Shown here piece after piece: positions 3,737 through 36,546 of a stretch of DNA of 36,546 bases. Below the pieces are notes generated by a model. That model searched no databases. It was not told the DNA's origin and saw only the letters and a program-made list of their open reading frames with translations. Within the stretch, counting starts at the first letter, position 1. The number at the start of each line of letters is the position of its first letter. Origin of the DNA: Candidatus Jorgensenbacteria bacterium RIFCSPHIGHO2_02_FULL_45_20 (GTDB lineage: Bacteria > Patescibacteriota > Minisyncoccia > UBA6257 > GWB1-50-10); NCBI GenBank assembly GCA_001779535.1, contig MFKJ01000003.1, forward strand, positions 1 to 36,546, in the 5' to 3' direction. A program made the position numbers and the translations under genes.

Positions 3737-4777
3737 TTATTCTACCTCGGCCGGCGTTACTCCTTTCTTCTCCGCCGTTTCTTTTATTTTCTTTTTTATC
3801 GCTTCAAGCGTTTTTTTGTCCTCTTTGAGCTTCAACCGCGCGTTATCGAATCCAACTCCGAGTTTTTCTCCTTCAAACGACAAACTCGCGCCGGCTTTCG
3901 CGATAACGCCGTATTTAATTCCGGTATTCAAAACATCCGACTCATACGAAACACCCTCACCGTACATAATATCGAATTCAGCAATCCTGAACGGCGGAGC
4001 AACTTTGTTTTTTACGACTTTCGCTTTCGTCCTGTTCCCTATCACCTCCTCGCCTTTTTTCACCTGCGCGATGCGGCGCACGTCTATGCGCACCGAACAG
4101 TAAAACTTCAGAGCCATCCCGCCCGGAGTCGTTTCCGGATTGCCGAACATTATCCCTATTTTCATCCGTAGCTGGTTTATGAAAATTATAATCGTGCTGG
4201 TTTTGGCCGCTATCGCCGTAAGTTTTCGGAGCGCCTGCGACAAAAGCCGCGCCTGAAGTCCGATATGCTGCGCGCCCATTTCTCCCTCGATTTCCGCCCT
4301 TGGCGTAAGCGCCGCCACAGAATCCACGACAACAATGTTTATTATTCCGGAGCGTACCACGCTTTCAAGAATGTTCAGCGCCTCTTCGCCGTTGTCGGGC
4401 TGGGAAATGATAAGGTCTTTTACCTTCACGCCTATTCTCGCCGCGTATTCGGGGTCGAGCGCGTGTTCAGCGTCTATGAACGCCGCTTTCCCGCCGCGCT
4501 TCTGAACTTCGGCTATCGCGTGGAGAGCGAGAGTCGTTTTCCCCGAACTCTCTGGCCCGAAGATTTCTATAATTCGTCCTTTCGGCAATCCGCCGCCCAA
4601 AGCCATATCGAGCGAAAACGAGCCGGACGGAACAACTTCTACTTTCGTATGAAGATGATTGCCGAGAGTCATCACGGCTCCCTCGCCAAATCTGGAGCGA
4701 AGCGACTCCATGAGCGACTCTATACTGTCTCCTATCGGTTTACCGTCCGTTTCTTTTACATTTTTCTTTGTATTCAT
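3737..4777 (-). CDS. recA: Recombinase RecA
   Basis: [48 protein letters not shown]. Confidence 0.98.
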
Positions 4778-4786
4778 TTTTAGATA

Positions 4787-5491
4787 TTATAATCCGCCGC
4801 CGGATAACTCGCCACTCGTTTCGAATTCCGGAACGATTGCGGGGGCGCTGGTTGCGACTTCAAAGAAAATTCTTTTTTCGATTGTGTATTCCTTGCCGAG
4901 AAATTTTTTCACGTTGAATTTAAGCGTATTAAATCCGGGCGAAAGTTTTATTTCTTTCTCAAAACTCCCGTCGCTCGAAAGATAAATCTGTTCGCCGTTC
5001 AGAATCAAGTCGTTTGTGGGAGGCGTCTTTCCTTTCAGCGTGAAGTTTTCCTCTTTGACTACCATATTGTCTTCCACTCCCGAAAGCGACAGTTCCGGCG
5101 TTCCGAAATACGAATAAAGCCGTACAAAAACATACACCGCCACAATAATTCCCAAAACGGAGAACGCGACAATCTTTTTGTTTAACCGGCGCCTTAGGAA
5201 CATGTTGCCCGGAAGCGTATTACTCGTTCCGGTTTTGCGCACAAAATCAGCATCTTTGAAGTGTTTAATCCAGACCTGTTCACCATCCAATCCAAGCGCC
5301 TTTGATATTTTTATGATGTATCCGTGAAGATATGGGGATGGGGGCAATTCCTCCACGCGCTTTTCGATGAGAAGCGACAAAAAACGGTCGGAAATGCCGG
5401 TTGTTTGCGATAGATAATCAAGCGACACGCCCTTGGCGCGCATCGCTTCAAGTATAATATCGGAGAAACTGTTCTTAAACTCATCTGTCAT
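4787..5491 (-). CDS. RodZ-like membrane protein: N-terminal HTH, one TM helix, extracytoplasmic beta domain
   Basis: HTH_25-like N-terminus (ILEAMRAKGVSLDYLSQTTGISDRFL), positively charged stretch followed by a TM helix. The track ORF extends to 5599, but MTDEF at 5491 is the more natural start. Confidence 0.65.
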   Translation of the reverse strand: MTDEFKNSFSDIILEAMRAKGVSLDYLSQTTGISDRFLSLLIEKRVEELPPSPYLHGYIIKISKALGLDGEQVWIKHFKDADFVRKTGTSNTLPGNMFLRRRLNKKIVAFSVLGIIVAVYVFVRLYSYFGTPELSLSGVEDNMVVKEENFTLKGKTPPTNDLILNGEQIYLSSDGSFEKEIKLSPGFNTLKFNVKKFLGKEYTIEKRIFFEVATSAPAIVPEFETSGELSGGGL

Positions 5492-5625: not shown

Positions 5626-7743
5626 TTATAACAAAACATCTCTCGGTTTCGCGCCTTCGCCGGGGCCAACTACTCCGCGCTCTTCCATCATATCAAGGAG
5701 TCGCGCGGCGCGGGCATAGCCAACTTTAAGACGGCGCTGGAGTAAAGACGCGGACGCTTTGCCGGCGCTTCTTATGACTTCAACCGCCTCCTCATAGAGT
5801 TCGTCGTCGTCCGCTTTTTCCTCAAATGCTTCAAAATTCGGAGCGTCAAGCGAAGGACGGTCATTTGCTTCCTCAAGCGACGAGCCGTTTATGAAGTCCT
5901 GCGAAAGAGACGGATTATTTTTCTTTATAAATTCAACAACTTTTTTTATCTCATCTTCCGAGATGTACGCTCCCTGAACGCGTTTCGGTTTTGACAATTC
6001 GGACGAAACGAAAAGCAAGTCCCCTCTTCCGAGAAGTTTTTCAGCTCCGGCGGAATCAAGAATCGTGCGCGAATCAACCTGGCTTGCGACTTGAAGAGCG
6101 ATTCGAGTCGTAATATTCGCCTTGATAAGACCTGTTATAACTTCAACCGATGGCCTCTGCGTTGATACGATCAAATGAATGCCAGTCGCGCGCGCCATCT
6201 GGGCGAGGCGGATTATCGCGCCCTCAACTTCCCTCCCGTATGAAGACATAAGATCGGCGAGTTCATCTATCACTATTAATATGTAAGGCAAGTCGCTGTG
6301 GTTTTTGTGATAACTTTTTATATCGCGAGAACCCGATTCAAGAAGAAGCTGATACCTGCGGTCCATTTCCTGTATCGCCCACCTAAGAGAACCAAGCGCT
6401 TTTTTGTTTTCCGTTATAACAGGCGCGAGAAGATGAGGAATGCCGCCGTATACGGACAGTTCGACTCTCTTCGGGTCAACCAATATGAGTCGCAGCGTGT
6501 CCGGTGAATTTTTGAAAAGAATGGACAGTAAAATCGCGTGTAGCATTATTGATTTTCCGCTTCCTGTGGCGCCGGCAACTAAAAGGTGCGGCATTTTGCT
6601 TATATCCTGGAATATCGGTTCGCCGCTTACATTTCTACCGAGACCGAACGTGAGTAAGCTGGATTTTTGAAATTCAGGATAAAGCAATATGCTTCCGAGA
6701 CGCACTATCGCCGCCGCCTTATTGGGAACTTCTATGCCAACGAGCGATTTTCCGGGAATAGGCGCCTCGATTCTTATAGGGTGCGCCGCGAGCGAAAGCG
6801 CGAGGTCTTGATTCAACGCTATGATTTTTGACAAACGAACCCCCTCCGCCGGTTTCAATGTGTAGCGCGTTACGGTAGGTCCGACGTTTATTTCTCCCAT
6901 TTCAACCGATATACCGAAACTTTCAAGCGTGCGCTTTATCATATTCGCGTTCGCGCGCAGGTCGCCTATCGTCGGTTTTTCTATCGTTGAAGAAAGAATG
7001 GAAAGAGGCGGGGCGATGTAATTTTTTATCCGCTTCTGTTTTAATTCCGTTAATTTTTCCGAATCGGTAACAAATTCCGGAATTTCATCACGCGCGCCGG
7101 AAGAACTCTCCCCTCTTTTTTTGTCTCTGGATAATTTCTCCTTGGTATTTTTCTGCGCGTATTCCGGCGTATTTTGCTCCGCGATTTTTTCCTCATCCGC
7201 GTAATTTTCGTAGGCGTCTTTTTTACGGAAAAGCGGAAAGTTTATATTAAGATTCAGCGGACGGTTGAGCGCAACCAAAGACGATATCACGAAAACAATA
7301 AATGTTATAAGAATGGACGCTGGAGTTCCGAACGGCTGTTTTAATTTTCCTGTAAAGCTACCCAACAGTCCCCCATGTCCGTTCGCGATAATGTCTATAA
7401 ACCCGAGCCCGGATATGAAAATAAGAATACTCGCTCCGGCGGTTATCCATATATCGCGCTTGAAGTCGCGTTCTTCGTCCGACAACAATGAAAACGCGAG
7501 TATGAAAAAAATCATGGGGAATAAGAAATACCCCCATCCGAAAAATTTAGTTAACGCATTGTATACCGAATTACCGAACGGCCCCGCCTGTCTAACTCCC
7601 GCGAGCAGGAATAATATTGCTATTCCCAAAAAAAGAACAACCCAAATAGTTTTCAAAATGTCCGGATGAAGAGAATCGGAAATTTTTGCGCTTTGTTTTT
7701 TCACGGCTGGAGTTTCTTTCTTATTTTTTGATTTTTTTGCCAT
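5626..7743 (-). CDS. ftsK: DNA translocase FtsK/SpoIIIE
   Basis: N-terminal TM helices, MPHLLVAGATGSGKSIMLHAI Walker A, LILVDPKRVELSVY, C-terminal winged-helix gamma-like domain. Confidence 0.96.
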   Translation of the reverse strand: MAKKSKNKKETPAVKKQSAKISDSLHPDILKTIWVVLFLGIAILFLLAGVRQAGPFGNSVYNALTKFFGWGYFLFPMIFFILAFSLLSDEERDFKRDIWITAGASILIFISGLGFIDIIANGHGGLLGSFTGKLKQPFGTPASILITFIVFVISSLVALNRPLNLNINFPLFRKKDAYENYADEEKIAEQNTPEYAQKNTKEKLSRDKKRGESSSGARDEIPEFVTDSEKLTELKQKRIKNYIAPPLSILSSTIEKPTIGDLRANANMIKRTLESFGISVEMGEINVGPTVTRYTLKPAEGVRLSKIIALNQDLALSLAAHPIRIEAPIPGKSLVGIEVPNKAAAIVRLGSILLYPEFQKSSLLTFGLGRNVSGEPIFQDISKMPHLLVAGATGSGKSIMLHAILLSILFKNSPDTLRLILVDPKRVELSVYGGIPHLLAPVITENKKALGSLRWAIQEMDRRYQLLLESGSRDIKSYHKNHSDLPYILIVIDELADLMSSYGREVEGAIIRLAQMARATGIHLIVSTQRPSVEVITGLIKANITTRIALQVASQVDSRTILDSAGAEKLLGRGDLLFVSSELSKPKRVQGAYISEDEIKKVVEFIKKNNPSLSQDFINGSSLEEANDRPSLDAPNFEAFEEKADDDELYEEAVEVIRSAGKASASLLQRRLKVGYARAARLLDMMEERGVVGPGEGAKPRDVLL

Positions 7744-28369: not shown

Positions 28370-31357
28370 ATGAAGTATAACTTTTCGGCGATTGAGAAAA
28401 AATGGGCCGCGAAATGGCTCAAAGAAAAAATATACGAACCGGATTTCGGCAAATCAGGAAATAAAAAACGCAAGTTTTATAATCTGATGATGTTTCCTTA
28501 TCCGTCGGCTGAAGGGCTGCATGTGGGGAACGCGTACGCGTTTATTGGAAGCGACATTTACGGGCGTTTCAAGCGTATGCAAGGATATGACGTTTTTGAG
28601 CCGATGGGGCTTGACGGGTTTGGCATACACTCGGAAAATTACGCGCTTAAAATAGGAACCCATCCGTTAAAGCAGTCGGAGGCGTCAGAGAAAAGATTTT
28701 ACGGACAGCTCAAAAACATAGGCAACGGCTTTGCGTGGGATGAGCGCCTCGAGACGTATAAGCCGGAATACTACAAATGGACGCAGTGGATTTTCACGGA
28801 AATGTGGCGGAACGGACTCGCGTACCGCAAAAAACAAGAAGTGAATTGGTGTCCGTCGTGCAAAACGGTGCTGTCGGATGAGCAGGCGGAGGGAGGGAAA
28901 TGCGAGAGGTGCGCGAGCGAAGTCGTAAAAAAAGAGTTGGAACAATGGTTTTTCCGCATCACAAAATACGCAGGCAAACTTTTGAAAAATTTAGACGAGA
29001 TTGACTGGTCGGAAAAAGTCAAAATAGCGCAAAGGAATTGGATAGGAAAATCAGAAGGGGCGCTTATAAAGTTCAAAGTTCCAATATCAAATATCAAAAA
29101 TAAGGAAGAGAGTGAAATTTATTTGGAGGTATTTACAACAAGGCCGGATACGCTTTTTGGCGCGACGTATATGGTGGTGGCGCCGGAACATGAGATAATC
29201 GGCCGGTTGCGAGATAAAATTCAGAACAATAAGGAAGTCGAAAATTATATTTTTAAGTCCAAGAAGAAAACAACCGAAGAAAGAATCGAAAACAAGGAAA
29301 AAACAGGCGTTGAATTGAAAAGTATAAAGGCGATAAATCCCGCGAACAATGAAGAAATTCCGATTTTTGTCGCGGATTATGTTCTTATGGGCTATGGAAC
29401 GGGGGCTATTATGGCAGTCCCCGCGCACGATGAGAGGGATTTTGAGTTTGCAAAGCAGTTCCAACTACCGGTGCGGCAGGTGGTTGCGGAGGAAACAGGC
29501 ATGAAACGCGAAAAAGAAGAACGGCGCGACGGAGTATTTGTAATTGTTTTCGACCCAAATCGGCAAAAGTATGCGGCGGGACGGCAGGAAAACGGGATAT
29601 TGCGATTATTTTCCGGAGGAGCGGATACCGGCGAAAATATGAAAAATAGCGCGCTTCGCGAACTTTCGGAAGAAAGCGGCTTGTATGATTTTCAAAAAAT
29701 GGACGAGATCGGAACAGTATTCGCGCATTACCATAACAGCTTACGAAACGTGAATAGGATTACGAAAGCGGTAAGTTTTCTTGTTGTTTTGAAAAGCGGT
29801 AAGACAAAGCCGGTCAAACTTGAGAAGCATGAAAAGTTCACGCTTGAATGGACAACAGCGGAAGATATGGAAAAAAACTGGGAAGAGCACAATAAAGAAG
29901 GGGATTTCGACCACTGGATAAAATTTTTACGGCAGTCGGTGGGACAATGTATTGAGTTCGGATTCGACAAGAAAAACGACCCAGAGCGGTACAAAACCTC
30001 CGCGTACGAGGGCGATGGCATACTTGTTAATTCGGAAAATTTCACCGGCATGGATTCCGAAAAGGCGCGATGGAAAATCACGGAATTTGTCGGCGGGAAA
30101 AAACAGACACAATATCGGCTTCGCGATTGGCTGATTTCCCGCCAAAGATACTGGGGACCTCCGATTCCCATGATTTTTTGCGAGAAGTGTTCGGTTTCCG
30201 GCAATGGGGAACAAAAAAATATGCCGGGGTGGTACACCGTACCAGAAAGCGAACTTCCGGTGAAGTTGCCAAATATTTTGAATTTCCGGCCGCGGGGTAC
30301 GGGAGAATCGCCTCTTGCGTCTGAAAAAAAGTTTTACGAAACAAAATGTCCGGCGTGCGGAAACGCGGCGCGGCGCGAAACGGACGTTTCGGATACATTT
30401 CTCGATTCCGCGTGGTACTACATCGGATACCTCATGAAAATTTCAAATTTCAAATTTCAAATTAAAGATTCGCGATTTTCTGAAATCGCGCGGCAGTGGC
30501 TTCCGGTTGATGCGTATATCGGCGGGGCGGAGCACTCGGTTTTACATCTTCTTTATGTGCGGTTTGTCGCTATGGCGCTAAAGGATTTTGGGCACATCAG
30601 CTTCGAAGAACCGTTTCCGAAATTCCGCGCGCACGGGCTTTTGGTAAAAGATGGGGCTAAAATGTCCAAGTCGAAGGGGAATGTTGTGAATCCGGACGAA
30701 TACATAAATAAATTCGGCGCGGACACTTTCAGAATGTATCTAATGTTTCTCGCGCCGTTTGAGTGCGGCGGGGACTTCAGAGATGGCGGGATTTTGGGTA
30801 TTTCGCGTTTTTTGGAGAGAGTTTGGAAGATAGGAACGCAAGGCGAGTTTTCGGATTCTCCGGCTTTAGGCGATACCGAACACCTGCTTCACAAAACAGT
30901 AAAGAAAGTCGGTGAAGATGTTGAATCGCTCCAGTACAATACCGCGATCAGCGCGCTTATGATTTTTCTCAATAAATTTGAAAAGACGAAGAACCGTTCG
31001 CTCGAGCATTTCAGGACTTTTCTTCTGCTTTTAGCTCCGTTCGCGCCGTTTGTAGCGGAAGAACTTTGGCAGATGACATTGGGTGAAAATAAATCCGCCG
31101 GTTTTCCGGGGTTCAATTCAATTCACAAAGCGGAGTGGCCGTCGTATGACGCCAAAAAACTTGAAGCGGATTATTTTGTGCTTGCGATTCAGGTGAATGG
31201 TAAAGTTAGGGATGAAATGGAGGTACCAAAAAACATGCCGCAGGGAGAAATAGAAAAACACGCGCTTCAGAGAGAGCGTATACTTAAGTTTATGGAAGAA
31301 AAAAAGCCAAAAAGAATCATATTTGTGCCGGGTAAGATTCTGAACATAGTTTTATAA
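28370..31357 (+). CDS. leuS: Leucyl-tRNA synthetase with an internal Nudix domain
   Basis: PYPSAEGLHVGNAYAF, GAKMSKSKGNVVNPDEYI, AVPAHDERDFEFAKQF, and an internal Nudix box (29615-29683). Confidence 0.95.
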   Translation: MKYNFSAIEKKWAAKWLKEKIYEPDFGKSGNKKRKFYNLMMFPYPSAEGLHVGNAYAFIGSDIYGRFKRMQGYDVFEPMGLDGFGIHSENYALKIGTHPLKQSEASEKRFYGQLKNIGNGFAWDERLETYKPEYYKWTQWIFTEMWRNGLAYRKKQEVNWCPSCKTVLSDEQAEGGKCERCASEVVKKELEQWFFRITKYAGKLLKNLDEIDWSEKVKIAQRNWIGKSEGALIKFKVPISNIKNKEESEIYLEVFTTRPDTLFGATYMVVAPEHEIIGRLRDKIQNNKEVENYIFKSKKKTTEERIENKEKTGVELKSIKAINPANNEEIPIFVADYVLMGYGTGAIMAVPAHDERDFEFAKQFQLPVRQVVAEETGMKREKEERRDGVFVIVFDPNRQKYAAGRQENGILRLFSGGADTGENMKNSALRELSEESGLYDFQKMDEIGTVFAHYHNSLRNVNRITKAVSFLVVLKSGKTKPVKLEKHEKFTLEWTTAEDMEKNWEEHNKEGDFDHWIKFLRQSVGQCIEFGFDKKNDPERYKTSAYEGDGILVNSENFTGMDSEKARWKITEFVGGKKQTQYRLRDWLISRQRYWGPPIPMIFCEKCSVSGNGEQKNMPGWYTVPESELPVKLPNILNFRPRGTGESPLASEKKFYETKCPACGNAARRETDVSDTFLDSAWYYIGYLMKISNFKFQIKDSRFSEIARQWLPVDAYIGGAEHSVLHLLYVRFVAMALKDFGHISFEEPFPKFRAHGLLVKDGAKMSKSKGNVVNPDEYINKFGADTFRMYLMFLAPFECGGDFRDGGILGISRFLERVWKIGTQGEFSDSPALGDTEHLLHKTVKKVGEDVESLQYNTAISALMIFLNKFEKTKNRSLEHFRTFLLLLAPFAPFVAEELWQMTLGENKSAGFPGFNSIHKAEWPSYDAKKLEADYFVLAIQVNGKVRDEMEVPKNMPQGEIEKHALQRERILKFMEEKKPKRIIFVPGKILNIVL
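29615..29683 (+). other. Nudix box inside leuS
   Basis: GGADTGENMKNSALRELSEESGL matches GX5EX7REUXEEXGU at every position. Confidence 0.9.
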
Positions 31358-32481: not shown

Positions 32482-33231
32482 TCAGAAGTTTCTTGAAATA
32501 TATTTAGGGACAATACCCAAACTTAAATATCTCTGTTGAATATCTCGTGGTAAATATTTGAAATCTCTGATGCGATGACGGCAGTTTTTACTTCTACATT
32601 CGCAATCCATTTCCCAATCATTTTCATCCATTGTCGTAGAATAATCCCAAGTTATTTCATCGCCCTCATTTATTTTTTCTACCGCTATCAGAAAAACCTT
32701 TTTACTATTAATTTTCAATCCGGTATTAGGACTACACGAATGATTAAAATAATCATCTATACCGCCCGATGGCCCCATATACAAATTTTCTCCTAATTGA
32801 ACATAATGATCTTCGACTCCATTGTAGGGCGTTGGCAATTCTTTATAAGTAAAAAACTTTCCGTGAAATTCAAAAATTATTTCGCCCTTACCGAATTTCT
32901 TAATGGCAAAAACCCCTTTACCATTTTGAGTATTTTTAACGACAAGATTTTTTTCACTTTCCATGATATATTTCATTAAATCATCAATTGAAACACCCAA
33001 CCCTTTGGCGATTTTTGCCATGGTTTCAATTGTAGGATTCAGCGTTGCGCCGGACTCAATCTTAATAATTACATTGTAAGCAATATCAGCAAGCTTCGAG
33101 AGTTTATCCTGCGAAATATCCAGTTTTTCTCTGTACTTTTTGATATTCTTCGCAATTGTTGGTAATTCTTTGCATAAATCCTTGGAAAATATTAAACTTA
33201 AATTAGTTTTTATACGGTTAAAGATTATCAT
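32482..33231 (-). CDS. XRE-type HTH fused to SET domain (putative protein lysine methyltransferase)
   Basis: HTH: IKKYREKLDISQDKLSKLADIAYNVIIKIESGATLNPTIETMAKIAKGLGVSIDDL. SET: GKGVFAIKKFGKGE, YFNHSCSPNTGL, GDEITWDYS; post-SET CECRSKNCR. Confidence 0.9.
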   Translation of the reverse strand: MIIFNRIKTNLSLIFSKDLCKELPTIAKNIKKYREKLDISQDKLSKLADIAYNVIIKIESGATLNPTIETMAKIAKGLGVSIDDLMKYIMESEKNLVVKNTQNGKGVFAIKKFGKGEIIFEFHGKFFTYKELPTPYNGVEDHYVQLGENLYMGPSGGIDDYFNHSCSPNTGLKINSKKVFLIAVEKINEGDEITWDYSTTMDENDWEMDCECRSKNCRHRIRDFKYLPRDIQQRYLSLGIVPKYISRNF

Positions 33232-33233
33232 AC

Positions 33234-33284
33234 ATTCGTATAAGATATAATATTTAAGTGTATTTATGAAAACACTTCGTATAA
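33234..33284. promoter_or_regulatory. Candidate operator of the HTH-SET gene
   Basis: TTCGTATAA at 33235-33243 and 33276-33284 (41 bp apart); inverted repeat AAGTGT-N10-ACACTT at 33256-33277. Confidence 0.4.
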
Positions 33285-33353
33285 AAATGAGTTGTGCGAC
33301 ATTTGTTCGCGCGCCTAGATAACTTTTTATAACACTATAAATTACTTTATTGT

Positions 33354-33935
33354 ATGGAAGATAGAATTAATAAAATACTCTCTTTTTTGCAGGAGATTGA
33401 AAAATACAAAACCGTTGAAAGAGAAATGTTTTCTTCAAACTTAACTAGAACAGAAAGTGATGCCGAACATTCTTGGCACTTGGCAATGTTTTTGCTTCTC
33501 TTTGAAAAAGAGCTTCCGGAAAATCTAGATATGAAAAGAATGCTGAAACTCGCCTTAATGCACGATTTGGTAGAAATTTATGCAGGAGATACTTTTGCTT
33601 TTGATAAAGAAAATCAAGCCACAAAAAAAGAGCGCGAGTTTCAGTCAGCGAAGAAGCTCTTTTCCCAACTGCCAGAAGATTTACATAAAGAATTTGACGA
33701 TTTATTTAGTGAATATGAAGAAGTAAAAACCTCTGAAGCAAAGATTGTGAAATCTTTTGACAAAATACAACCAATTCTCCAAAATCTTTGCTCTGATGGA
33801 AAATCTTGGAAAAAACACGGCATCACTTTCTCGGATATTGATGAATATAAAAGAAAACACATGGAACACAACGGTTTTGTATTAAAAATATATGAAAAAT
33901 TACTGAATGATGCAAAAAAGAGGGGTTTGATTTAA
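33354..33935 (+). CDS. HD-domain phosphohydrolase (YfbR/HDDC2-like nucleotidase family)
   Basis: ESDAEHSWHLAMF...LALMHDLVEIYAGD. Confidence 0.88.
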   Translation: MEDRINKILSFLQEIEKYKTVEREMFSSNLTRTESDAEHSWHLAMFLLLFEKELPENLDMKRMLKLALMHDLVEIYAGDTFAFDKENQATKKEREFQSAKKLFSQLPEDLHKEFDDLFSEYEEVKTSEAKIVKSFDKIQPILQNLCSDGKSWKKHGITFSDIDEYKRKHMEHNGFVLKIYEKLLNDAKKRGLI

Positions 33936-34089
33936 CGGCGCGCTCACAAACGCAAGGGGACGCTGCGCTTTCGTCGCTATCGCTCCTCACCCTCGTATAA
34001 CAAGGGATAAAAGGAAAATTGCTCGGCTCGCCCCTCACCCAAATTTTTCTTCCACTCCGTTCCAGAAAAACTTCAGACGATGCCGATAC

Positions 34090-34168
34090 GTTAGCTGAAA
34101 TATTAAAAAATTCTTTTCGGCCCCTGCGGGGCATTTAATCGGGACAAAATTATTTTTTTATTTTTTTG
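34090..34168. repeat. Left terminal inverted repeat of the nucleotidyltransferase cassette
   Basis: GTTAGCTGAAATATTAAAAAATTCTTTTCG-[GCCCCTGCGGGGC]-ATTTAATCGGGACAAAATTATTTTTTTATTTTTTT; inverted copy at 35316-35400. Confidence 0.9.
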
Positions 34169-34182
34169 AACTCAACAAACAC

Positions 34183-35325
34183 ATGAACGAAAAATACATT
34201 CCATCAAAAGAAGAAATAGAGCTAGCTGAAGAAATTGCTGTGGAGGATCATATGACTTCTGAACAAAAAAGTGATTCTGAATTTAGGGTTAAAAACTGGG
34301 AACAAGAGCAAGCGCCCTGGGTTCCATTTGACGATGACGATATTGATGAAAATTTTGAACGTAAGCCAGCTACTCCTGAACAAAAAGAAGATATGGATAG
34401 AAGATTAGCGGAGCTTGCTGACGCTTTCGAGGGTTCAGATATTAATTGGCACATGGACGGTGCTTTGAATGTTTCTTTAATGAATGGTGGATATATTGGA
34501 AATCATAAAGATGTAGATTTATCAATTGAAAAAAACGAACTTGCAAAACTTGAAGCTCAACTGCTCAAAAAAGGATTCGGATTATTTTTATCAAGAACTG
34601 AGGACAAAACAAAAAATAAAGTAATGCGAAGAGCCGGACATGCTGATTTTGCAGATTCAGACACCGAACATATGCTTATTGCCGCAATCGACGAAAATGG
34701 CCAAATCAGGAGAGATAAATCTTTAAATTTTGTTGACACGCATATTGTCGAAAGAAATGCAGACGGGCAAGCGCTTGGAAATTCGGGCGTAGTAATACCA
34801 GATAAATGGACAAAACCTTATCCCGTTGAATTTCAAGGAAAATCAATCAATTTATCACATCCAGGCAAGGTTTTGTATTACAAATTACACCAAGGGCGAG
34901 GTTATGACACTACTGACATCCAACGATTAGTTGAAACTGGAAAGGTTACAGAAGAAGATGTCGCGGATGTAGAAAAAGTATTTGAAAGCGAGTTTACTGC
35001 AAACATTGTACGTGGACGGAAAGTATTTGAGGCGGTTGCAAAACAATTAATGCCAGAAATGAATACCGACCAGATTATTGATGTTATTTTGCAACAGCGT
35101 GAATTAACAAAAGGAGGTGAAGAAGCACGAGAATTTTTTAGGCCGTTTGCACAAAAAATTTTTGAATCAGATGACAAGACAACGGATGCGATGTTAAAAA
35201 TTGGAATTGAATTATTTAAAGTTGAAGAAAAAGATAATCAAAAACGTGAGGAAATTAATCGAGTTAGACAAGCAGTCGTTGACGCGCAAAAATTAAAACA
35301 GATTCGGGAGGAATTAAAAAAATAA
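34183..35325 (+). CDS. Nucleotidyltransferase-fold protein (distantly aminoglycoside-adenylyltransferase-like)
   Basis: INWHMDGALNVSLMNGGYIGNHKDVDLSIEKNELAKLEAQLLKKGFGLF: N-terminal fold with a DxD pair. Confidence 0.55.
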   Translation: MNEKYIPSKEEIELAEEIAVEDHMTSEQKSDSEFRVKNWEQEQAPWVPFDDDDIDENFERKPATPEQKEDMDRRLAELADAFEGSDINWHMDGALNVSLMNGGYIGNHKDVDLSIEKNELAKLEAQLLKKGFGLFLSRTEDKTKNKVMRRAGHADFADSDTEHMLIAAIDENGQIRRDKSLNFVDTHIVERNADGQALGNSGVVIPDKWTKPYPVEFQGKSINLSHPGKVLYYKLHQGRGYDTTDIQRLVETGKVTEEDVADVEKVFESEFTANIVRGRKVFEAVAKQLMPEMNTDQIIDVILQQRELTKGGEEAREFFRPFAQKIFESDDKTTDAMLKIGIELFKVEEKDNQKREEINRVRQAVVDAQKLKQIREELKK

Positions 35326-35400
35326 AAAAATAATTTTGCCCCGATTAAATCTTTTGTCTAACGACAAAAGCGAAAAGAATTTTTTAATACATCAGCTAAC
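35316..35400. repeat. Right terminal inverted repeat of the nucleotidyltransferase cassette
   Basis: Reverse complement reads GTTAGCTGATGTATTAAAAAATTCTTTTCG-[CTTTTGTCGTTAGACAAAAG]-ATTTAATCGGGGCAAAATTATTTTTTTATTTTTTT. Confidence 0.9.
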
Positions 35401-35468
35401 ACGCAATATCCGCAAGGGCTAAGGCCACATCCGCTAAGGCGGACGTCGGATATTGCGAAACGTTATGT
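35394..35468 (+). other. attC-like recombination site D
   Basis: AGCTAAC...stem CGCAATATCCG (35402-35412)/CGGATATTGCG (35447-35457)...GTTATGT (35462-35468); inner hairpin TCCGC-taag-GCGGA. Confidence 0.6.
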
Positions 35469-35506
35469 GCAATAACTTTTAAGGGTCATACGCTTACTAA
35501 ACAATA

Positions 35507-35923
35507 ATGCGTGAAACTAATATAGTTGAAAAGTTTCTTGCGTCAGTTATCAATGTGGCTGTCGTCGGGATAGTTTTCTTTCCATTTATATTTTCAGATG
35601 TTAGCTCATTGATAAAAAAACTCATTCTCATTGTCATATTTCTGCTTTATAATCTACTTGTTCTTATATTCAACAAGAATAGGTGTATTGGAATGGTGTG
35701 TCTCAGGACAAGGTGGAAAGAAAACTATCCATTTGTTAACCAAGCGATCTATATATTGCTGTACACGCTTAGCTTTTCAACTCTTTTGTTTCATGTATAT
35801 TTCCTGTTCGATTTATTTTTGTTGAATATGATTTTTCTTCAGCTCCCCATGGTGGTATTGAAAAAGAATACCTTGCATGGTTATTTATCTGGCAAGATGA
35901 TTACTGTAAAAACGAGCCCTTAA
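35507..35923 (+). CDS. RDD-like small integral membrane protein
   Basis: Predicted TM helices; RDD-like pattern (VEKFLASVINVAVVGIVFF, NRCIGMVCLRTRW). Confidence 0.5.
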   Translation: MRETNIVEKFLASVINVAVVGIVFFPFIFSDVSSLIKKLILIVIFLLYNLLVLIFNKNRCIGMVCLRTRWKENYPFVNQAIYILLYTLSFSTLLFHVYFLFDLFLLNMIFLQLPMVVLKKNTLHGYLSGKMITVKTSP

Positions 35924-35970
35924 AAATTACATCCGACTTTTTAGTTTTGCTGTAATTTAGAGTATAATGA

Positions 35971-36050
35971 GATTAACAATTAAGTAAGAATATTAAGGTT
36001 TTGTGCCTAGAAACCAAAGTGCAGGACTTCAGATATTCTTAACGTTATGT
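35971..36050 (+). other. attC-like recombination site E
   Basis: GATTAAC...stem TAAGAATAT (35985-35993)/ATATTCTTA (36033-36041)...GTTATGT (36044-36050). Confidence 0.5.
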
Positions 36051-36105
36051 GAAATAGCCAGAAATTTCTTTGTTATTTTAGAATTTTTTGGCAATTTATT
36101 TCGGT
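36044..36105. repeat. Left inverted repeat of the 74-aa ORF cassette
   Basis: GTTATGTGAAATAGCCAGAAATTTCTTT...ATTTTTTGGCAATTTATTT; inverted copy at ~36386-36446. Confidence 0.88.
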
Positions 36106-36159
36106 CGAACATAGCTTGTGATATAATTTAAGCGTTTAATAATTATTAAGGAAAAAACT

Positions 36160-36384
36160 ATGTCAGAACAACAAAAAGGTTTTGAAGGAAAACCTGAAAG
36201 TCCTTCGCCAGAAGAAGAAAAAAAGGAATTGTCTTTATCCCCCAATGAAGTGCACACGATGTCATATCTAATAGATAGAGAATTACTAGACTTAAAAAAA
36301 GAAAAGAGACCAGACGATGATGATTATACAAATAAGTTGAAGCAATTATTTTTAAAATTGCAAGGAAGAGAGTTTGATAGCTAA
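36160..36384 (+). CDS. Hypothetical 74-aa acidic/charged protein
   Basis: ATG preceded by AAGGAAAAA; open frame within an inverted-repeat-bounded cassette. Confidence 0.55.
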   Translation: MSEQQKGFEGKPESPSPEEEKKELSLSPNEVHTMSYLIDRELLDLKKEKRPDDDDYTNKLKQLFLKLQGREFDS

Positions 36385-36385
36385 T

Positions 36386-36446
36386 CTATAAATAAATTGC
36401 CAAAAAATACATTAAGGAAAAGAAATTTCTGGCTACATCACATAAC
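36386..36446. repeat. Right inverted repeat of the 74-aa ORF cassette
   Basis: AAATAAATTGCCAAAAAAT...AAAGAAATTTCTGGCTACATCACATAAC. Confidence 0.88.
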
Positions 36447-36483
36447 AGCGTGTATCTGGATACGGAAAATTGGCGCAAAAATC

Positions 36484-36509
36484 AAAAACCCCGATGCAGA
36501 GCATCGAGG
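36484..36509 (-). terminator. Terminator for a minus-strand gene outside the window
   Basis: Minus strand: CCTCGATGC-TCT-GCATCGGGG followed by TTTTTGATTTTT (one stem mismatch). Confidence 0.55.
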
Positions 36510-36546
36510 TATGATCTCTTCGTTTAGAGTAAATCGAATAGAGTAG

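Follow-up and report, generated by a model that had tools for sequence, protein, structure and literature searches.

A probable remnant of an integron-like cassette array in a Patescibacteria genome, and related arrays beside tyrosine recombinases without the IntI-specific domain

The closest described systems to the locus reported here are integrons. Class 1 integrons and the Vibrio superintegron share with it an attI site, head-to-tail cassettes that mostly hold a single gene, hairpin attC sites, a GTT crossover and cassette-specific boxes at both cassette ends. The IntI-specific domain of integron integrases is treated as defining and serves as a search criterion for integrons (PMC9668308). 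The portion of Smyshlyaev 2021 considered here calls this insertion essential for integron function, though not fully conserved, and describes no cassette arrays for the insertion-less, integron-like tyrosine recombinases that it reports (PMC8138268). Integrons have been listed in many phyla, with Patescibacteria not among them (PMC8618304, PMC9024848), and complete integrons come, in Firmicutes, only from Limnochorda and, in Bacteroidetes proper, only from Salinibacter (PMC9024848). Archaeal integrons resemble our case in lying outside the usual phyla, in having been recovered from MAGs and in mostly lacking an integrase, but their IntIs are described with the IntI-specific domain, whereas the recombinases reported here are without it (Ghaly 2022, PMC9668308). 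Our search of the open-access literature, preprints excluded, found no published report of integrons in Patescibacteria or of XerA-type integron integrases.

The window, meaning the whole stretch of DNA analysed (36,546 nucleotides), is the entire contig C3 (MFKJ01000003.1) of Candidatus Jorgensenbacteria bacterium RIFCSPHIGHO2_02_FULL_45_20, whose 608-kb genome is 96% complete in 31 contigs. A cassette array at the end of this contig is real and exceeds the extent given in a preliminary description made from the sequence alone: the last 4 kb carry an attI-like site, then four cassettes with three or four attC-like sites. We consider it very probable that this is the decaying array of a second integron-like system, one without the IntI-specific domain, whose sites and association with a recombinase are described below and whose recombination we infer from them. 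The system works like an integron and yet, on the IntI-domain test, is not a canonical one. It differs from the integrons named above in its recombinase, in an attI consensus of its own, in its attC spacers (1 versus 4 nt), in cassette ends whose pairing spans about 16 nt or more, with an invariant mismatch at position 11, and, in Patescibacteria, in long inverted repeats. The features of the array region are as follows.

32482 to 33231, minus strand: gene for a 249-aa HTH and SET-domain protein, not a recombinase (Pfam SET 3e-14, HTH_3 2e-13)
33220 to 33301, plus strand: attI-like site with its crossover GTT at 33291 (18-site model, 49.7 bits, E 2e-13)
33291 to 34001, plus strand: cassette 1, from GTTGTGCG to CGTATAAC (sequence; boundaries from the attI and attC models)
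33989 to 34101, plus strand: attC-like site C, a hybrid (covariance model R1, 61.6 bits, E 2e-12; outside the training set)
34090 to 35400, plus strand: cassette 2, with long terminal inverted repeats (repeats; own-end alignment score 44)
35388 to 35473, plus strand: attC-like site D, with an intact 11-bp stem and asymmetric spacers of 1 nt versus 4 nt (fold; R1)
35462 to 35933, plus strand: cassette 3, with a membrane-like 138-aa ORF at 35507-35923 (inverted repeats, sequence)
35972 to 36055, plus strand: attC-like site E, with a degenerate left half and an intact right half, AACGTTATGTGAAAT (R1 19.9 bits, E 0.09)
36044 to 36446, plus strand: cassette 4, with a 74-aa ORF at 36160-36384 (terminal inverted repeats)
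36434 to 36475, plus strand: attC-like site F, left half alone (95% match to its counterpart half-site in genome G423)

Cassette 1, which had been overlooked together with the attI-like site, carries an HD-domain (YfbR-like) gene at 33354-33935 (Pfam HD_3, 6e-47). The site before 34090 had been described as having no left half; this half, also overlooked, is present as CGTATAAC at 33994-34001. We regard site C as a hybrid because its left arm, GGGATAAAAGG, and its right arm, CAGACGATGCC, are not complementary. Cassette 2 has inverted repeats at 34090-34119/35371-35400 and 34133-34167/35316-35350, and its cargo is a 380-aa nucleotidyltransferase-like gene at 34183-35325 (Pfam Aminoglyc_resit, 4e-8). 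Cassette 3 had been said to break the rule that the two ends of a cassette match. It retains its inverted-repeat end (35473-35485/35917-35929) and the usual ACATC at 35929-35933, and only the terminal CNNNNAAC box is degraded, reading CGACTTTT. Its ORF also contains a perfect 17-bp inverted repeat (35568-35584 and 35714-35730). Cassette 4 has inverted repeats at 36044-36071/36419-36446 and 36083-36101/36390-36408; its ends show 83-95% DNA identity to cassette ends of other families, and its middle is unmatched. The last 71 bp of the contig, after half-site F (36476-36546), are identical in the same orientation to the end of contig C26. The GATGCAGAGCATC palindrome in this segment recurs near the start of contig C2, and this repeat family may break the assembly. 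An Rfam scan of the window gave no match, and no plasmid DNA matching the array was found. Upstream, the leucyl-tRNA synthetase ORF (28370-31357) appears, as judged by eye, to have a NUDIX-like stretch in mid-protein.

The box coordinates of the preliminary description are correct (GTTAGCT at 34090 with AGCTAAC at 35394-35400, GTTATGT at 36044 with ACATAAC at 36440-36446, and sites D and E). Its view of D and E as attC-like palindromes holds for D, where the bottom-strand fold beats its shuffles (z -6.3, 0/200) and R1 gives 58.0 bits, D being itself a member of the R1 training set; E is weak in both its fold (z -1.4) and the R1 score listed above. Its label, CALIN-like, suits a cassette array without an integrase and is too narrow for one that has kept an attI-type site. 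The reading of an integron-like cassette array without an integrase was right, and the earlier interpretation as a whole is partly supported.

The attI-like site of the window has two direct repeats, TTCGTATA, at about -55 and -15, and its junction reads AAAATGA/GTTGTGCG. Eighteen attI sites adjacent to recombinase genes align nearly gap-free, with TTCGYATA direct repeats about 41 nt apart and an AACGA/GTT end; the GTT insertion point is present, in a consensus that differs from that of class 1. A 29-nt attI matrix (PWM) was built from 22 recombinase-adjacent sites, separately from the model made from 18 sites. Its best score in the window, 31.1, falls at 33291, followed by 11.4 for the next best position, and on contig C2 it reaches 21.5. 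Among the genomes of 149 relatives, the attI model found strong matches (E < 1e-6) in 11, nine of which were also attC-positive (p 1e-9). At seven loci (L152, L059, L061, L062, L075, L084 and L087) tRNA genes lie just upstream, in the direction of the array, of attI or of the recombinase-attI block; tRNA genes may be the platform's insertion target or supply it with read-through transcription.

A common plan is shared by 24 attC-like sites: NNNNAAC, then a single spacer base and an 11-bp stem, then a four-base spacer ending in AC, and finally GTTNNNN. Because the R1 training sites were chosen partly by arm complementarity, pairing counts and covariation in the alignment are circular and the covariation score is not used here as proof; the held-out tests alone are independent, and the model's E-values are rough. 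In the window, attC-type hairpins in the same orientation and less than 4 kb apart occur at 33989-34101 and 35388-35473, with E as a weak third. By the preliminary description's own account, a covariance search without further copies would have counted against it; many more copies were found, with a model built here rather than the reference attC model. Used as a genome-wide marker of arrays, AACGTTA is not enriched (51 occurrences versus 65 for the reversed pattern).

Matches to attC were found in 14 of the 149 relatives, and they co-occur with a particular recombinase: six of the seven genomes with the recombinase had them, compared with 8/142 others (p 1.5e-6), and with the training genomes removed the counts were 3/4 versus 4/138 (p 3e-4). 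We also used a held-out set of 20 recombinase loci from a separate sample of 380 Patescibacteria genomes, 18 of which were usable (L272 has masked stretches and L280 duplicates L078). At these loci 61 of the 62 attC matches lay on the expected side and strand. Where more than 1 kb was available on the expected side, attC was found in 13/15, and attI was present at 15/18 loci. On a class 1 integron locus R1 gave no score.

Each cassette starts with GTTNNNNG-AAAT and has the near-complement ACAT-CNNNNAAC at its end, a pattern that would arise because a cassette enters at attI keeping its own attC. For 39 cassettes (38 from other Patescibacteria loci and cassette 2 of the window, with the five bases after GTT scored), box matches between a cassette's own ends sum to 157, whereas 20,000 permutations average 103 and reach 130 at most, and chance is excluded as their source. 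Long complementarity between the ends is likewise a property of the individual cassette, with a mean alignment score of 21.7, versus 10.6 when ends are swapped inside a locus. Cassettes of Paenibacillaceae and Flavobacterium (n=22) gave 105 own-end matches versus a permuted maximum of 81. The permutation tests extend the cassette-end rule, which the preliminary description had applied to the window, to many genomes in several phyla. End pairing goes no further than about 16 nt in Flavobacterium and Paenibacillus. When 58 cassettes were profiled, positions 4-9 and 12 onward paired with the cassette's own end and position 11 never did, its start base being A in 57/58 and its reverse-complemented end base G in 48/58. 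In three class 1 integron cassettes position 11 is paired as well, and they lack this constant mismatch, which may serve in recognition. Similar shells of terminal repeats and a 5' leader surround different genes across families (34090-35400, 36044-36446, L057-L060), as if cargo had been swapped inside conserved ends.

We found no integrase in the genome, in agreement with its earlier reported absence from the window; the only tyrosine recombinase found is Xer-like and lies on contig C11. In a comparison of the array DNA with the 149 relatives, cassette ends and half-sites matched at up to 95% identity (E 1e-35 to 1e-9) in nine genomes. All nine belong to other families of the order; nothing comparable was found in the own genus or family, and the same-genus and same-family genomes gave no attC or recombinase matches. 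In three genomes (G512, G423 and G428) a second tyrosine recombinase directly adjoins the array match and is oriented away from it. G512 holds the full locus on one contig, consisting of the recombinase, the junction AAACGA/GTTATGTG, eight cassettes each closed by an attC hairpin, and ThrRS, with cargo that includes a serine hydrolase, an EamA transporter, a RibD/DHFR-like enzyme, a methyltransferase and a Bro-N protein. Contigs break less than 1 kb away on the cassette side in 12/25 loci and on the other side in 1/25, a bias that would fit cassettes differing from cell to cell. The position held by the recombinase in other genomes is occupied in the window by the HTH and SET-domain gene, and a tblastn search beside recombinase-less attI sites, this position included, gave no convincing recombinase remnant.

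This recombinase family occurs in 50 of the 380 Patescibacteria genomes. The 18 members that were aligned, which are about 270 aa long and share 48-70% identity with the G512 protein, have invariant catalytic R, K, H, R, H and Y residues and lack the IntI-specific domain around patch III, being about 42 residues shorter: box I and HxLRH are 93 residues apart in the Patescibacteria family and 91-94 apart in the other phyla checked, versus 135 in IntI1. Alignment with the V. cholerae integrase (2A3V) leaves a gap of about 45 residues at the position of the IntI extra domain, and 2A3V is also the best structural match (Foldseek E 1e-17) of a predicted recombinase model (pLDDT 86.5, pTM 0.63). All four recombinases tested score 202-226 bits with TIGR02249 (integron integrase), below the 265-bit cut-off. 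With NF040815 (XerA/integron integrase), three of the four just pass the cut-off and the fourth just misses it. XerA is named for dif resolution, whereas here the recombinase adjoins attI and arrays, and the genomes examined hold a separate Xer. In a tree, the family and the Xer proteins encoded by those genomes fall apart with an SH-aLRT of 99; with one long-branch IntI, the tree holds too few IntIs to position the family against them and does not settle the order of descent. No viral carriers of the family were found, the best full-length matches there having about 30% identity.

An attC model trained only on Patescibacteria found sites beside related domain-less recombinases in Paenibacillus, Saccharibacillus, Flavobacterium and Treponema, as well as in Nitrospirae, another spirochaete and a Nanoarchaeia genome. 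In Flavobacterium difficile, near-identical sites of about 142 bp separate the cassettes, the end boxes match exactly in the textbook integron pattern, and the array is found downstream of the recombinase and shares its direction. Beyond Paenibacillaceae and Flavobacterium there are one to three sites per genome, and we treat these as leads. On balance, we lean towards a second integron class without the IntI-specific domain in Patescibacteria, Paenibacillaceae and Flavobacterium, and probably in Spirochaetota, Nitrospirota and Nanoarchaeota. Such a class may recognise folded sites in another way, for example by the extended 16-bp end pairing and the invariant A-C mismatch, and it may be a surviving stage between Xer/dif and IntI/attC.

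In the mechanism that we propose, a small tyrosine recombinase would cleave the DNA at GTT, by a presumed chemistry, and join the folded attC-like hairpin of an excised cassette, presumably a circle used in single-stranded form, to attI. A new cassette would enter at the attI end and its own attC would stay at the far end. In the window genome the recombinase would have been lost, and several sites have decayed: C is a hybrid, E is degenerate and GTT has changed to ATT on contig C2. That contig carries a second array (L152, 4077-5873) with a tRNA-Gly gene, attI at 4315-4387, attC at 5080-5241 and 5777-5873, and no recombinase; two of its crossover GTTs have become ATT and its NUDIX ORF is frameshifted.

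The array could also be functional, served in trans by a recombinase from another replicon, another cell or an unassembled part of the genome, which we regard as unlikely but deserving of some weight. The HD and nucleotidyltransferase ORFs are open, and this reading keeps its place because attI-plus-array loci without a recombinase recur, twice in this genome (G000) and also in G488, G477 and G299. However, we favour loss over supply in trans because C is a hybrid site, E no longer has its left half and ATT stands in place of two GTTs on C2; cassette 3 also has a degraded box, and the C2 frameshift points the same way. The window array is thus most likely a remnant whose cargo still includes open genes, and the loss itself could be only apparent in a genome that is 96% complete in 31 contigs.

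That the locus is an ordinary integron remnant, with canonical attC cassettes formerly served by a standard IntI, we consider improbable. The cassette-end logic, the GTT crossover and the layout of attI plus array are shared with integrons, the relatives' recombinases do score with TIGR02249, and CALIN likewise consist of an array without an integrase in the same genome (Neron 2022, PMC9024848). Nonetheless, the adjoining recombinase lacks the IntI-specific domain (93 versus 135 residues) and stays under the TIGR02249 cut-off, which 0/380 Patescibacteria genomes pass. In addition, and unlike CALIN, attI is kept here and R1 separates this attC type from the class 1 control, in whose cassettes the invariant position-11 mismatch is missing.

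A binning or assembly artefact, in which the array end of C3 came from another organism, is very improbable. The array is absent from same-genus genomes and the contig ends in the shared 71-bp repeat, but the array is joined without a break to LeuRS and to an anchor gene common to 18/19 of the family genomes searched, its own included, and the second array, on C2, follows genes that look like rpsL, rpsG and fusA. We also considered a simple insertion between the anchor gene and HtrA, which was rejected: an HtrA-like gene neighbours the anchor gene in the seven relatives examined, the HtrA-like counterpart here is on contig C24, and no clean empty site was found. Least probable of all is that non-autonomous transposons, as separate inverted-repeat elements, lie head to tail by chance: terminal inverted repeats at least 28 nt long and the same repeat shells around different genes in different families would suit them, but neighbours share one hairpin site whose two boxes belong to different cassettes, the array begins at a conserved attI, no transposase ORF was recognised in it, the arrays of relatives adjoin a tyrosine recombinase, and in Flavobacterium and Paenibacillus the end pairing is short.

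If recombinases lacking the domain drive cassette arrays, a large group has escaped integron surveys, and ultra-small bacteria with reduced genomes would possess a gene-capture device. The origin of integrons from Xer-like enzymes would then be directly testable in cultured Paenibacillus and Flavobacterium.

A related recombinase in G142 (L013, 1483-2397) has a 32-residue insert near the position of the IntI domain and attC-like sites nearby, and may bridge the two integrase types. The Gracilibacteria recombinase locus L088 has in-frame stops under table 11, which probably reflect TGA recoding, and was omitted from the protein alignment.
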